From: an uncultured Legionellales bacterium
GTDB taxonomy: Bacteria; Pseudomonadota; Gammaproteobacteria; Eutrophobiales; Eutrophobiaceae
NCBI GenBank assembly: GCA_913046215.1
Contig: CAJWRJ010000010.1
Coordinates: 1-50,441, forward strand
Direction of reading: 5' to 3'
DNA length: 50,441 bases
How positions within the stretch are numbered: position 1 is the stretch's first letter; every line of letters starts with the position of its first letter. This document shows, piece after piece, positions 39,714 through 45,890 of the stretch. A program made the translations under genes and the position numbers. The notes under the pieces are model-generated. The model saw only the letters and a list, made by a program, of their open reading frames with translations, ran no database searches and was not told where the DNA came from.

Positions 39714-40802
39714 CTAGTCGCCAGTTCGTTCGACTAAACCGCCTTTAAGACAATAAGCATCAATACCTCGCTCACTCAACAAAAAAGCTGCCGCGGAACT
39801 TCGACGACCACTATCGCAATAAACTATGTATTTCTTTTTTGTATCCAGTGTAGCGGCCTTTATTCTTAAAGTAATAAGAGGAATATTGATACTTCCTTTC
39901 ATCCCAGAATCCTTATGCTCTGATTCAAGTCTAACATCAATCCATATTGCTGTTCCTTCATTAACCATTGCATCTGCTTCTTCCCCAGTTAACCAACTCA
40001 ACATAGGCTCTTTTAATAATTCATTGAAGTCATCTTTAGATAAACGCATTAACGAACCGCTTGTTTCCATAACTACATTTGCATTTCGTTTAGCATCAGA
40101 TAACAAGGCCTCCTCTCCAAATGAACCTCCAACTGAGATTGTTGCAAGAGTAAGAGGAGTTCCTGTCTTTGAATTTCGAGTAACCTTGCATTTTCCCTGC
40201 TTAATGATGTAATAATAATCACCATCCTCACCTTGCTTAATTACCTCTGTACCTGCTTTGACTGGCATCTCTTGCATGCGCATAAACATTGTCTGAATAT
40301 TGGCAGGAGGTACTTGTAGAAAAGCTTTAGACTGCAGAATACTCGTCATCCAATCAGCTTCTTCATCATTTTCACTTGATGAATCGGCCGCATGTATGTC
40401 TGATACTTCAATACCGGACAATTGATCCCAAGTTAATAAAATGTCGAGTAAATCACTATCAATTCTAATTAAACTACAATCTGTTTTTGCTTTTGCCGTT
40501 TGCTTTCTTGGTTGCCGATTTGCAATAGCATGTTTTGCTTTTTCAGTGCCTGCTTCAACAACATAACCAGCGGTACCCGTAACCTCGGTATTTTCTGAAG
40601 CGCTTTCAATCGAAGATACTTCCACCTGTCCCTCAACAATGTATATTGCTTTTTTATCATTATCTCCAGCTTTAAAAATAACTTCCCCGGCAGAAACAGT
40701 CTCAACAAAAGTTTTGCCCGCTAGTTCATCAAAATTCTCAGCCTTAAGTGAATTTGCTGGAACAAAGTTTTTTAATACTGTTTTATCAATTGGTTCAGAC
40801 AT
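39714..40802 (-). CDS. Double cyclic-nucleotide-binding domain plus rhodanese protein
   Basis: Predicted soluble sensor or enzyme of unknown role. The 362-residue protein has two CAP_ED-type domains and a C-terminal rhodanese domain. The first (about 25-125) is degenerate, with an insertion after GQVEV. The second (about 155-265) has a good phosphate-binding cassette, GGSFGEEALLSDAKRNANV, with the Arg that contacts the cyclic nucleotide phosphate. The rhodanese domain (about 275-362) keeps the active-site loop YCDSGRRSS (Cys329). No DNA-binding helix-turn-helix is visible, so it is not a CRP-like transcription factor. It lies between the nitrogen locus and aroE, downstream of a strong terminator. 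Confidence 0.82.
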   Translation of the reverse strand: MSEPIDKTVLKNFVPANSLKAENFDELAGKTFVETVSAGEVIFKAGDNDKKAIYIVEGQVEVSSIESASENTEVTGTAGYVVEAGTEKAKHAIANRQPRKQTAKAKTDCSLIRIDSDLLDILLTWDQLSGIEVSDIHAADSSSENDEEADWMTSILQSKAFLQVPPANIQTMFMRMQEMPVKAGTEVIKQGEDGDYYYIIKQGKCKVTRNSKTGTPLTLATISVGGSFGEEALLSDAKRNANVVMETSGSLMRLSKDDFNELLKEPMLSWLTGEEADAMVNEGTAIWIDVRLESEHKDSGMKGSINIPLITLRIKAATLDTKKKYIVYCDSGRRSSAAAFLLSERGIDAYCLKGGLVERTGD

Positions 40803-40874: not shown

Positions 40875-40907
40875 AAAAAACCTGCTGTGCTTGAAACACA
40901 GCAGGTT
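40875..40907 (-). terminator. Rho-independent terminator after the second amtB
   Basis: AACCTGCTGTG (40879-40889) and CACAGCAGGTT (40897-40907) form a perfect 11-base-pair stem with a 7-base loop. On the minus strand the stem runs into a T-run (complement of 40875-40880). It follows the amtB stop at 40929 and precedes the CAP-rhodanese ATG at 40802, so the two units are transcriptionally separated. Confidence 0.93.
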
Positions 40908-40928: not shown

Positions 40929-42206
40929 TTAAATATCGTAGCCCCTTTCATTATGTAAAACGATATCGAGACCTTCAGTTTCTTCATCTTCATCAACTCT
41001 CAAACCAACGATTATATCCACTAATTTTAAAATAAAGAAAGTCGCCACAGCACACCAAACTACAGTTGCTATAACTCCAACGGCCTGTGTTCCAAGTTGG
41101 GAGGTAATGGAATAAACTTCTTCTCCTTCATATAAACCACCAAAAGAATTTGAATAAAAAACAGCGGTCAACAGACAGCCTAAAATACCACCAACGCCGT
41201 GAACCGGAAATACATCGAGTGAATCATCAATTTTTAATACTCGTTTGATGTATTGAGTCGCAAAATAACAAACAACACCAGCTGATATACCAATAACAAG
41301 GCCGCCAACTGGTCCAACAAAACCTGACGCTGGTGTTATGGTACCTAATCCAGCCACCATGCCTGTAACAATACCAAGAACAGTTGGTTTGCCAGATTTG
41401 TACCACTCACATACCATCCAAGCTAATGAACCAGCCGCCGCAGAGATATGAGTCACTGCCATTGCCATTCCTGCGTTACTGCCTGCTGAAACCGCACTGC
41501 CGGCATTAAAACCAAACCAGCCAACCCATAACATTGATGCACCCGCAACGGTTATTGCCATATTGTGCGGAGTCATCGGTGTTCCAGGAAAACCGCGACG
41601 ATTACCAAGGACAATTGCGGCAACAATTGCGGCAACACCGGCATTGATATGAACAACAGAGCCACCGGCGAAATCAAGAAAACCTATATCACCAAGCCAA
41701 CCGCCACCCCAAACCCAATGACAGACTGGTGCGTAAACAAGTGTTAGCCATAATGCTGTAAACCAGAGCACAGATGAAAACTTCATTCTTTCAGCAAAAC
41801 CTCCGACTACTAAAGCTGGGGTGATAATGGCGAATGTCATCTGAAACATAAAGAAGAGAATTTCTGGTATTGTGCCATTCTCTGTATCTAAACCTACATC
41901 AGAAAGCATTATATTTCCAAGACCAACGATCTTGTTTAATGTCTCACCCCCGTTACCAAAGGCTAAACCATAGACAAATACCAACCATAATATCGATACC
42001 AAACATGCGATGGCAAAACACTGCATTAACACTGATAGCACATTTTTGGCGCGAACAAGGCCAGAATAAAATAAAGCGAGTCCGGGCAACGTCATAAATA
42101 GCACTAGTGCAGTCGAAGTTAAAATCCACGCGGTATCGCCGCTATCTACCTCGGCAAATACTAAACTTGGAAATAATGAAATTAGTAATATTAAAATCCG
42201 ACTCAT
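40929..42206 (-). CDS. amtB: Ammonium transporter AmtB (copy 1, distal)
   Basis: Inner-membrane ammonium channel, gated by GlnK. The 425-residue protein has a signal-like first segment (1-18, cleaved in homologues) and about 11 membrane helices. The twin pore histidines are His186 (GGSVVHINAG) and His336 (DVFPVHGVGG). The cytosolic C-terminal tail that contacts GlnK is present (GLDIVLHNERGYDI). A very strong ribosome-binding site (AGGGGGAAT) precedes the ATG. It follows its own glnK by 91 bases. It differs from the proximal AmtB in loop lengths and signal, so the duplication is not recent. Confidence 0.95.
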   Translation of the reverse strand: MSRILILLISLFPSLVFAEVDSGDTAWILTSTALVLFMTLPGLALFYSGLVRAKNVLSVLMQCFAIACLVSILWLVFVYGLAFGNGGETLNKIVGLGNIMLSDVGLDTENGTIPEILFFMFQMTFAIITPALVVGGFAERMKFSSVLWFTALWLTLVYAPVCHWVWGGGWLGDIGFLDFAGGSVVHINAGVAAIVAAIVLGNRRGFPGTPMTPHNMAITVAGASMLWVGWFGFNAGSAVSAGSNAGMAMAVTHISAAAGSLAWMVCEWYKSGKPTVLGIVTGMVAGLGTITPASGFVGPVGGLVIGISAGVVCYFATQYIKRVLKIDDSLDVFPVHGVGGILGCLLTAVFYSNSFGGLYEGEEVYSITSQLGTQAVGVIATVVWCAVATFFILKLVDIIVGLRVDEDEETEGLDIVLHNERGYDI

Positions 42207-42297: not shown

Positions 42298-42654
<357 letters not shown>

Positions 42655-42795: not shown

Positions 42796-42823
42796 AAAAA
42801 AAAACGGGTCGTGAGACCCGTTT
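42796..42823 (-). terminator. Rho-independent terminator after the proximal amtB
   Basis: AAACGGGTC (42802-42810) and GACCCGTTT (42815-42823) form a perfect 9-base-pair stem with a 4-base loop; on the minus strand a run of nine T follows (complement of 42796-42804). It lies 33 bases after the amtB stop and before the second glnK, so the duplicated pairs are separate transcription units. Confidence 0.93.
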
Positions 42824-42855: not shown

Positions 42856-44193
42856 CTACAAGATGTAACCTCTCTCATTGTGAGAATTAACATCGAGGCC
42901 TCCAACTTCTTCTTCTTCATCTACTCGTAGACCCATGACTGAATCTAGGATCATTAATATGATAGAAGTTAAAACGCCTGTATAAATTATCGTAAATAAA
43001 ACGCTCTTTATTTGGATCCAAACCTGAGCAGACATAGTAACGTCTAGACCAGAACCACCCCATACAGATGATGCACAAACTCCGGTCAAAATAGCGCCAA
43101 TAATACCGCCAACAGCATGCACTCCAAATACATCGAGAGAATCGTCATAACCCATTGCACGCTTTATAGTTGTGGAAGCAAAGAAGCATCCGAAACCAGC
43201 CGCGGCTCCAATTAATAGCGCTCCCTGGGGACCCGCGCTACCTGAAGCTGGTGTTATTGCGACTAGTCCGGCAACTGCGCCTGTAATAATGCCCAGAACA
43301 CTCGGCTTTCCATGACTATTCCATTCGGCAATCATCCAAGCTAATGCAGCGGTTGCGGTTGCAATCTGTGTTACTAACATTGCCATACCTGTAACCCCGT
43401 CTGCTGCCAATTCTGAACCTGCATTAAAACCAAACCAGCCAACCCATAACATTGAGGCACCAATTACTGATAGAGTTAAATTATGAGGAGGCATAGCAGT
43501 TTCAGGATAACCCTTACGTTTGCCAAGCATGATTGCAGCAACGAGTCCTGCGATACCAGCATTAATATGTACAACTGTACCGCCAGCAAAATCAAGAACG
43601 CCCCAATCCCAAAGTAGGCCGCCGTCTCCAGCCCAAACCATATGAACCATTGGGAAATAACAAATGGTTACCCAAAGCGCCATGAAAACCATCATAGTTG
43701 AGAATTTCATTCTTTCAGCAAAAGCCCCAACTATAAGAGCAGGGGTTATGATCGCAAAAGTTAATTGGAATGTAGCAAATACAGATTCAGGAATTGATCC
43801 AGAAATAGAATCAACAGAAATGCCCTGTAAAAAAGTATTGCCAAGACCACCGACAATAGAATTCAAATTAACAACGCCTGCTTCCATTCCCGTTGTATCA
43901 AAGGCCATGCTATAGCCATATACAACCCAAATTACGGTAACCATGCAACATATTGCAAAACACTGCATCAAAACTGAAAGCACGTTTTTACTCCTGACCA
44001 TACCAGCATAAAATAAACTCAAGCCTGGTATAGTCATCATTAAAACTAATACGGTTGCAGTAAGCATCCAAGCGGTATCGCCTGAATTCAATTCATCAGC
44101 TAAAACAAGCGATGGTGCTAACAAGGTAATAAAACCGAGCACAGTGCCTGATAAGCCTTTCTTGTTAAATAAAGCACTTAATAAACGTTTCAC
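42856..44193 (-). CDS. amtB: Ammonium transporter AmtB (copy 2, proximal)
   Basis: Second ammonium channel of the locus. The 445-residue protein has a longer signal-like N-terminus (1-32, ending near VLADEL), about 11 membrane helices, the twin histidines His209 (GGTVVHINAG) and His359 (DVFGVHAVGG), and the GlnK-binding tail GLDVNSHNERGYIL. The start is GTG at 44193 with an excellent AAGGAG ribosome-binding site. It follows glnK by 26 bases, as the third gene of torF-glnK-amtB, and ends before a strong terminator. Confidence 0.95.
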   Translation of the reverse strand: MKRLLSALFNKKGLSGTVLGFITLLAPSLVLADELNSGDTAWMLTATVLVLMMTIPGLSLFYAGMVRSKNVLSVLMQCFAICCMVTVIWVVYGYSMAFDTTGMEAGVVNLNSIVGGLGNTFLQGISVDSISGSIPESVFATFQLTFAIITPALIVGAFAERMKFSTMMVFMALWVTICYFPMVHMVWAGDGGLLWDWGVLDFAGGTVVHINAGIAGLVAAIMLGKRKGYPETAMPPHNLTLSVIGASMLWVGWFGFNAGSELAADGVTGMAMLVTQIATATAALAWMIAEWNSHGKPSVLGIITGAVAGLVAITPASGSAGPQGALLIGAAAGFGCFFASTTIKRAMGYDDSLDVFGVHAVGGIIGAILTGVCASSVWGGSGLDVTMSAQVWIQIKSVLFTIIYTGVLTSIILMILDSVMGLRVDEEEEVGGLDVNSHNERGYIL

Positions 44194-44219: not shown

Positions 44220-44597
<378 letters not shown>

Positions 44598-44601
44598 CTA
44601 A

Positions 44602-45339
44602 TTAGAAGCTAGTTGATACTGAAAAAACAAATGCATCTGGTGAATCTTCACCTCGCACCCAGAATTCTTTAGTATCACTTACATCAAAGTAGTAACTTGC
44701 GTCGAATGTAAATATGCCTACGTCCTTACTTACACCAACGGAAGCATGGGAATAACTCGTTCCAGCTCTCGCTTCGTCATCGTTATTTTGGTAACCAAAT
44801 TGAAAGGCGAGACTAAAATCACCGGGAAGTGATAAACCTAAATCAAATGTATAGTAAGTTGCGTCTCCAACTTCACCAAAATAATCAGGGGTATAAGCAA
44901 TGCCAAAACCTAGGCTTGGTGCCATTGCCCCTTCAAGGGTGTAACCAACTCCTGCATAAATATCAACAAAATCAAAATCACCGCCTGAATCATCAGAATC
45001 TTTTACGCCAGGGTACCAATAATATAGTGCACCCACGTCCCAACTGACTCCATTTGGTAGATCGCCTCCAACTCCACCATAAAAATCAATTTCTATGTTT
45101 GCTGAGTTACCAAAATCTACATTAGAAGCCCATGTACCTATATAAAAACCTGATTCATGTGACATATCAAATCCACCTTGGATAGCTGCACCATCAGCTG
45201 TTTGGCTTCCGCCTCTATATATATAGTCACTGAAATAACCAACGTTGGCACTAAACTCAATCGGCGAATCTTCTGCAAGAACTGGTGTCGATACCAAAAG
45301 ACCAAGACATGTGAGTAATTTTAAATATAACTTCTTCAT
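44602..45339 (-). CDS. TorF-family putative porin, first gene of the nitrogen operon
   Basis: Predicted outer-membrane beta-barrel of the TorF (TIGR02001-type) family, whose substrate is not established. The 245-residue protein has a signal peptide cleaved after VLA (residue 22). The mature N-terminus (EFSANVGYFSDYIYRGGSQT) is the family hallmark, with alternating hydrophobic strands and acidic turns. The C-terminus is FVFSVSTSF with terminal Phe, as in barrels inserted by BAM. It is first downstream of a strong sigma-54 promoter and is followed by glnK-amtB, which suggests a role in outer-membrane entry of ammonium or another nitrogen source. GAGAGG precedes the ATG. Confidence 0.88.
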   Translation of the reverse strand: MKKLYLKLLTCLGLLVSTPVLAEDSPIEFSANVGYFSDYIYRGGSQTADGAAIQGGFDMSHESGFYIGTWASNVDFGNSANIEIDFYGGVGGDLPNGVSWDVGALYYWYPGVKDSDDSGGDFDFVDIYAGVGYTLEGAMAPSLGFGIAYTPDYFGEVGDATYYTFDLGLSLPGDFSLAFQFGYQNNDDEARAGTSYSHASVGVSKDVGIFTFDASYYFDVSDTKEFWVRGEDSPDAFVFSVSTSF

Positions 45340-45408
45340 TTTTTTTCCTCTCTGTTCAATTGTGTTATCTTCACTAAAGGTTGAATTAACCTATCTAGCT
45401 CTTATTAA

Positions 45409-45424
45409 TGCATCTTGCGTGCCA
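45409..45424 (-). promoter_or_regulatory. Sigma-54 (RpoN) promoter of torF-glnK-amtB
   Basis: On the minus strand the bases read TGGCACGCAAGATGCA. Against the consensus TGGCACG-N4-TTGCW, the -24 block matches seven of seven and the -12 block four of five. The predicted start is near 45398, giving a leader of about 60 bases before the torF ATG. Enhancer-like sites lie upstream at the expected distance. Confidence 0.88.
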
Positions 45425-45510
45425 ACTTTTTTTTATTTATTAAAATCAATTAATTAGAGAATATTTTTGAAAAATGAGAGAAAAAATAAGCTTTTTTGCC
45501 ATAATTTTTT

Positions 45511-45526
45511 GCACAAAAAAAGGTGC
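45511..45526. promoter_or_regulatory. Second, imperfect NtrC-type site
   Basis: GCAC and GGTGC flank seven A, one base longer than the usual spacing in NtrC sites (GCACC-N5-GGTGC). Its centre lies about 120 bases upstream of the predicted sigma-54 start and about 19 bases from the better site. Alone it would be weak evidence; next to the better site it looks like the second half of an enhancer. Confidence 0.5.
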
Positions 45527-45529
45527 TAT

Positions 45530-45544
45530 GCACAAACTTGGTGC
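45530..45544. promoter_or_regulatory. NtrC-type enhancer site
   Basis: GCACAAACTTGGTGC matches the palindromic NtrC consensus GCACC-N5-GGTGC with correct 15-base spacing and one arm mismatch. Its centre lies about 139 bases upstream of the predicted sigma-54 start, close to the distances (about 108 and 140) of the glnA enhancer sites in enteric bacteria. It supports nitrogen-limitation control of torF-glnK-amtB. Confidence 0.72.
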
Positions 45545-45568
45545 GAAAAATGAAATAACGTAAGTGGA

Positions 45569-45641: not shown

Positions 45642-45890
45642 ATGTTAAAAGAAAAAATTGAAGCAATAGTCTCAGATATCTCAAAGGTCTTACCAGAAGA
45701 CATCGACTTATTAAAAGAAGATATTGAAAAAAATGTCCGAGCCACATTAAATACTGCATTTACAAAAATGGAGCTTGTAACACGTGAAGAATTTGATATT
45801 CAAGCATCTTTGTTAAGCCGAACACGTGAAAAACTGGAAGCATTACAAAAAAAATTATCAGAAATGGAAAAACAATTAGAAGAAAAATAA
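45642..45890 (+). CDS. ubiK: Ubiquinone biosynthesis accessory factor UbiK
   Basis: Small YqiC/UbiK-family protein that helps UbiJ and the Ubi complex in aerobic ubiquinone synthesis. The 82-residue protein has an amphipathic N-terminal half (DISKVLPEDIDLLKEDIEKNVR), the family segment MELVTREEFDIQASLLSRTREKL, and a C-terminal coiled coil (LEALQKKLSEMEKQLEEK). ubiK beside glnK-amtB is common in gammaproteobacteria such as Pseudomonas. Here it is divergent from torF and only two bases from apaG, so it probably leads ubiK-apaG-apaH. Confidence 0.92.
   Translation: MLKEKIEAIVSDISKVLPEDIDLLKEDIEKNVRATLNTAFTKMELVTREEFDIQASLLSRTREKLEALQKKLSEMEKQLEEK

Follow-up and report, generated by a model that had tools for sequence, protein, structure and literature searches.

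A torF gene at the head of a predicted NtrC/sigma-54-controlled glnK-amtB operon suggests an outer-membrane channel for nitrogen scavenging in an uncultured Legionellales bacterium

In a stretch of 50,441 nucleotides from an uncultured Legionellales bacterium (contig CAJWRJ010000010.1; the whole stretch is hereafter the window), we have analyzed torF, a gene for a putative outer-membrane protein that is followed on the minus strand by glnK and amtB. Our results point to TorF as an outer-membrane channel that is induced by nitrogen starvation, is encoded in a torF-glnK-amtB operon of the nitrogen regulation (Ntr) regulon and serves small neutral or cationic nitrogen compounds, a reading to which we assign a probability of roughly 0.66. 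The evidence was computed throughout and comprises the regulatory sites, the gene order, the regulators encoded in the genome, the conservation and helical phasing of the sites, the predicted fold and charge pattern of the protein, and the linkage of TorF genes to urtA.

Results

The torF gene (45339..44602, minus strand) encodes 245 amino acids, with a predicted signal peptide and a 12-stranded beta-barrel. Upstream of it and on the same strand lies a sigma-54 -24/-12 promoter, TGGCACG-CAAG-ATGCA (TGGCACGCAAGATGCA, 45424..45409), with a predicted start near 45398. The -24 GG and the -12 GC of this element are separated by 10 bases, and it is conserved in relatives. It is the top-scoring site of its kind in the window and the only one there with at most one mismatch to TGGCACGNNNNTTGCW, from which it differs at one letter. 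Exact matches to TGGCACNNNNNNTGCW number six across the genome, and the remaining five fall inside reading frames. A scan of the region upstream of torF for sigma-70-like sites found none on the torF strand.

Two NtrC-like sites precede this promoter. An NtrC-type enhancer of 17 bp, CGCACCAAGTTTGTGCA (45545..45529, minus strand; 9 of 10 arm letters), is centered at about -139 and lies 121 bp upstream of the sigma-54 TGG. The other site, AGCACCTTTTTTTGTGCA (45527..45510, minus strand; 18 bp), is centered at about -120; its arm spacing is one base too long, and it lies 103 bp from the TGG, a position that is common in relatives. An earlier, sequence-only reading of this DNA had proposed a nearly full RpoN consensus on the minus strand upstream of torF, an NtrC-like site with correct arm spacing about 139 bases upstream of the predicted start and an imperfect one at about 120, and our analysis bears out all of these. 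To them we add a perfect consensus for integration host factor (IHF), AATCAATTAATTA (45444..45456, plus strand), which that reading had missed and which lies between the NtrC sites and the promoter. Taken singly, such patterns are to be expected several times over in DNA as AT-rich as this: the NtrC pattern alone gives 7 matches in the window against 9.3 expected, which is chance level, and the IHF pattern gives 9 against 7.9. The case therefore rests on the position and arrangement of the sites, their conservation and their phasing.

Behind torF, glnK (44558..44220, minus strand; a P-II protein of 112 amino acids) begins after 43 bases, and, just as had been proposed, this gap holds no terminator-like site. 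The ammonium transporter gene amtB follows (44193..42856, minus strand; 445 amino acids, listed with a GTG start). An intrinsic-terminator-like hairpin at 42823..42802 (minus strand) closes torF-glnK-amtB and, reading on from torF, is the first such site behind a gene end on that strand. Because no terminator separates torF from glnK and amtB, the latter two would share the torF promoter.

The assembly to which the window belongs (1.40 Mb, 98.8% complete) encodes RpoN, NtrC (721.9 bits; curated cut-off 558.6), NtrB (299.7 bits; curated cut-off 240) and both the alpha and beta subunits of IHF; GlnA is also present. Three of the 12 GCAC-N7-GTGC palindromes in the genome are placed upstream of torF, upstream of glnA and at the start of ntrB. 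The glnA palindrome is a full NtrC site (10/10 with flanking letters) and is accompanied by a sigma-54-like site. The palindromes at torF, glnA and ntrB are the expected core of a predicted Ntr regulon.

Among members of the genus the upstream region drifts, apart from two conserved blocks 121-122 bases from each other, the NtrC palindrome and the sigma-54 element. Three congeners keep the NtrC site CGCACCAAGTTTGTGCA, 121-122 bp away from the -24 TGG, and the IHF site is retained in two of the three and has one mismatch in the third; the second NtrC-like site itself is not conserved in the congeners. TorF is 87% identical over the matched part in a near relative, the metagenome-assembled genome of Legionellales bacterium isolate MED1261. 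At the level of the order, most genomes with TorF show the arrangement ubiK, torF, glnK and amtB, with one or two NtrC sites, often at a distance to the TGG of about 103 and 133 bases, and the sites are kept in most. Where TorF in the order lies away from glnK, the sites are mostly absent (L037, L040, L043 and L045), with L044 as an exception.

For a class-wide comparison, 276 genomes were drawn evenly from the class, of which 144 contain PF09694, and 100 TorF neighborhoods were fetched. In these neighborhoods, glnK or amt lies downstream of 60 of 105 TorF genes. With site-score thresholds that were our own and identical for the three sets, both a sigma-54 and an NtrC site were found in 77% of the TorFs adjacent to glnK or amt, in 40% of the other TorFs and in 1.1% of the controls, which were 276 other upstream regions within these loci. 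Clustering of TorF at 60% identity left 50 adjacent clusters, 40 of them with both sites, and 34 non-adjacent ones, 14 of them with both. In Shewanella (L128, L129) and in Alphaproteobacteria (L072, L080), torF genes that stand alone, with neither glnK nor amtB nearby, have sigma-54 and NtrC-like sites.

NtrC-to-promoter distances, dereplicated at 60% identity and taken from a search that did not impose phasing, cluster at about 81, 92, 102, 112, 122 and 133 bases. Their best period is 10.5 bases (R = 0.71), the helical repeat of B-DNA, and none of 5000 jittered sets reached this value; the NtrC sites of the window are 1.4 and 1.6 bases off the mean phase. In 35 of 64 class-wide regions, compared with 8.8 expected, the stretch from NtrC site to promoter contains an IHF-type site with at most one mismatch. 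Because their distances are phased at 10.5 bp, the sites look like working cis-elements, and the phasing is strong evidence, as far as sequence comparison goes, that the predicted NtrC and sigma-54 sites act together. The predicted NtrC/IHF/sigma-54 switch recurs as a conserved feature in much of the Gammaproteobacteria. With the regulators present and the sites conserved in relatives, sigma-54/NtrC control of torF-glnK-amtB is strongly supported.

Variations on this arrangement were also observed. Two tandem TorF genes occur in some relatives (L022, L029 and L031), where a sigma-54 site directly precedes only the copy adjacent to glnK. In L206 and L213, TorF and a glnK-amt pair are arranged head to head, and the sigma-54 and NtrC sites lie in the shared upstream region. 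Open reading frames of 467 and 476 amino acids (L183 and L198) hold two TorF domains in one frame, with sigma-54 and NtrC-like sites upstream.

The torF product matches PF09694 (E 1.5e-37; 130.3 bits, cut-off 24) and, over its full length, TIGR02001, "TorF family putative porin" (172.8 bits, cut-off 47.15). An AlphaFold2 model built from 54 homologues (predicted local distance difference test 87.9, predicted template modeling score 0.81) has 12 predicted strands and, at the N-terminus, a helix that fits a signal peptide; besides these, it lacks any passenger or periplasmic domain. A search of solved structures by the TorF sequence gave no match. The best structural matches of the model are KdgM (Z 17.4; root-mean-square deviation (rmsd) 2.4 Å over 169 residues), NanC (Z 17.1) and VhGalP (Z 16.7), followed by FapF (Z 15.8) and autotransporter barrels (about 14.5). 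KdgM, NanC and VhGalP are small monomeric uptake porins; the pores of KdgM and NanC are basic and admit acidic sugars. They share the 12-strand barrel size with the TorF model (Z 16-17, rmsd 2.4-2.8 Å), but only 9-14% of residues are identical, and the sequence family of KdgM gave no Pfam match to TorF at E 0.001, where only Gcw_chp matches. Mature TorF (residues 23-245) has 35 Asp/Glu against 6 Lys/Arg, and its inward strand positions, assigned by strand alternation in 54 sequences, hold 574 acidic and 51 basic letters. The lining of TorF is thus predicted to be acidic rather than basic as in KdgM and NanC, and since those porins use a basic lining for acidic sugars, TorF should prefer neutral or cationic solutes.

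A set of 71 UrtA genes, all above the curated cut-off, gave 12 TorF-urtA pairs within 3.5 kb, compared with about 0.2 expected, and TorF lies upstream of urtA in every one of the 12. Both a sigma-54 and an NtrC site accompany TorF in some of the pairs (L244, L248 and L250). No UrtA was found in the genome of the window. Two genomes of a single family have genes for N-carbamoylputrescine amidase (TIGR03381 over cut-off) close to TorF (L191:454-1431 and L245:3-983, both minus strand). By gene neighborhood, TorF would thus be linked to the use of ammonium and urea, and perhaps of polyamines.

Several neighboring genes complete the layout. A ubiK/BMFP gene (45642..45890, plus strand) runs divergently and is a conserved neighbor upstream of torF. 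Behind the operon lie a second glnK (42636..42298, minus strand), which forms a separate unit, and a second amtB (42206..40929, minus strand; 425 amino acids) with a terminator-like hairpin behind it (40907..40879, minus strand). Membership of this second pair in the same Ntr unit was considered and rejected, as a terminator stands in front of it and the window scan found no sigma-54 or NtrC site upstream of the second glnK; although directly behind the first pair, it is probably under other control. Adjoining the second amtB, positions 39714-40802 (minus strand) encode cyclic-nucleotide-binding domains fused to a rhodanese domain.

Discussion

From these results, we infer NtrC and IHF binding in vivo, co-transcription of the three genes, an open pore and a nitrogen-containing substrate of TorF. 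Under nitrogen shortage, phosphorylated NtrC would bind at about -139, and possibly also at -120, and IHF would bend the AT-rich stretch between these sites and the promoter. NtrC would then activate RpoN polymerase at the -24/-12 site, and transcription would end after amtB. TorF would be exported and would form an outer-membrane barrel of 12 strands whose interior is acidic, raising the permeability of the outer membrane to small neutral or cationic nitrogen compounds such as ammonium, methylamines and urea, and AmtB, gated by GlnK, would carry ammonium across the inner membrane. The genome gave no match to Porin_1, Porin_4 or OprD, the only channel families searched besides that of TorF and the porin noted below, and because of this a nitrogen-inducible barrel may be more important here than in enterobacteria. 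The sequence-only reading had proposed that ammonium or some other small nitrogen compound enters through TorF; this is plausible and is now better supported, because of the KdgM/NanC-like barrel, the acidic inward positions, the urtA link and the three porin families not found.

Several points weigh against such a role. The inward and outward assignment comes from strand alternation and not from coordinates, and a barrel fold in common with KdgM and NanC does not show the substrate, the more so as FapF and autotransporter barrels also match TorF well (Z 14-16). A PF07396 porin is present in the genome of the window and could pass ammonium, and many Gram-negative bacteria have no TorF and rely on general porins for ammonium uptake. 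Some TorF copies lie in an electron-transfer flavoprotein operon or a metal-efflux neighborhood.

Such non-nitrogen neighborhoods would fit with TorF being a general small-solute porin under many regulators, for which nitrogen control is one deployment and which has no nitrogen selectivity. The generic 12-strand barrel and the roughly 60% of non-adjacent copies without the two sites are in keeping with this, the best-surviving of the alternatives, which we nonetheless consider rather unlikely. Both sites are still present in the 14 of 34 non-adjacent clusters, and the TorF-urtA linkage is strong, which together indicate that nitrogen is the dominant theme of TorF in the class.

The rank of FapF, a secretion barrel, among the top structural matches raises the further prospect that TorF, induced in nitrogen starvation, has a structural, secretory or sensory role in the outer membrane, for example as a plugged barrel for secretion or anchoring, and the channel activity of TorF is so far a prediction. 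We regard this as improbable: the closest folds are uptake channels, the protein consists of barrel and signal peptide, and its genomic linkage is with uptake systems. Least credible of all is that torF is a passenger at the front of an operon whose sites serve glnK-amtB alone, an idea which the shared promoter allows but which is disfavored by the TorFs away from glnK that carry both sites (40% against a background of 1.1%), the stand-alone copies in Shewanella and Alphaproteobacteria among them.

If TorF is indeed a nitrogen-starvation-induced channel, ammonium and urea uptake in oligotrophs has a regulated outer-membrane step, which textbooks leave to general porins. This role would weigh most in small marine genomes such as that of the window, where the three classical porin families were not found. 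More tentatively, and with somewhat more doubt than confidence, we suggest that the TorF family as a whole is a dedicated outer-membrane branch of nitrogen scavenging, formed by cation- and urea-permeable channels that are induced through NtrC and sigma-54 and work with AmtB or the Urt importer, depending on the bacterium. The outer membrane would then hold a first gate specific to ammonium and urea uptake. PF09694 is still filed under "unknown function", and our analysis gives it a likely setting, nitrogen starvation, and a candidate substrate class.

Known systems offer partial parallels. In enterobacteria, glnK-amtB encodes a P-II protein and an ammonium transporter under NtrC and sigma-54; unlike torF-glnK-amtB, it has no outer-membrane gene in front. 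The FmdC porin of Methylophilus methylotrophus is an outer-membrane protein induced with an amide/urea uptake system and, at about 39 kDa, is larger than TorF. Our literature search on the TorF family, Gcw_chp and Shewanella torF/TorR found nothing usable. The closest layout is nlmA-glnK-amtB of Herbaspirillum seropedicae, which is described as NtrC-dependent and about 21-fold higher under nitrogen limitation, with NlmA detected in membrane extracts (PMC3023670, citing Noindorf 2006 and Huergo 2010). As far as this operon is described there, a membrane protein gene likewise comes first, followed by glnK and amtB, and the likeness seen is one of layout and control; the H. seropedicae genome paper is silent on whether NlmA is a TorF. 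Given the published nlmA-glnK-amtB, the regulation of the torF operon is not new in kind. The promoter and operon are of a known kind, and the transport role of TorF, if shown, is the new part.
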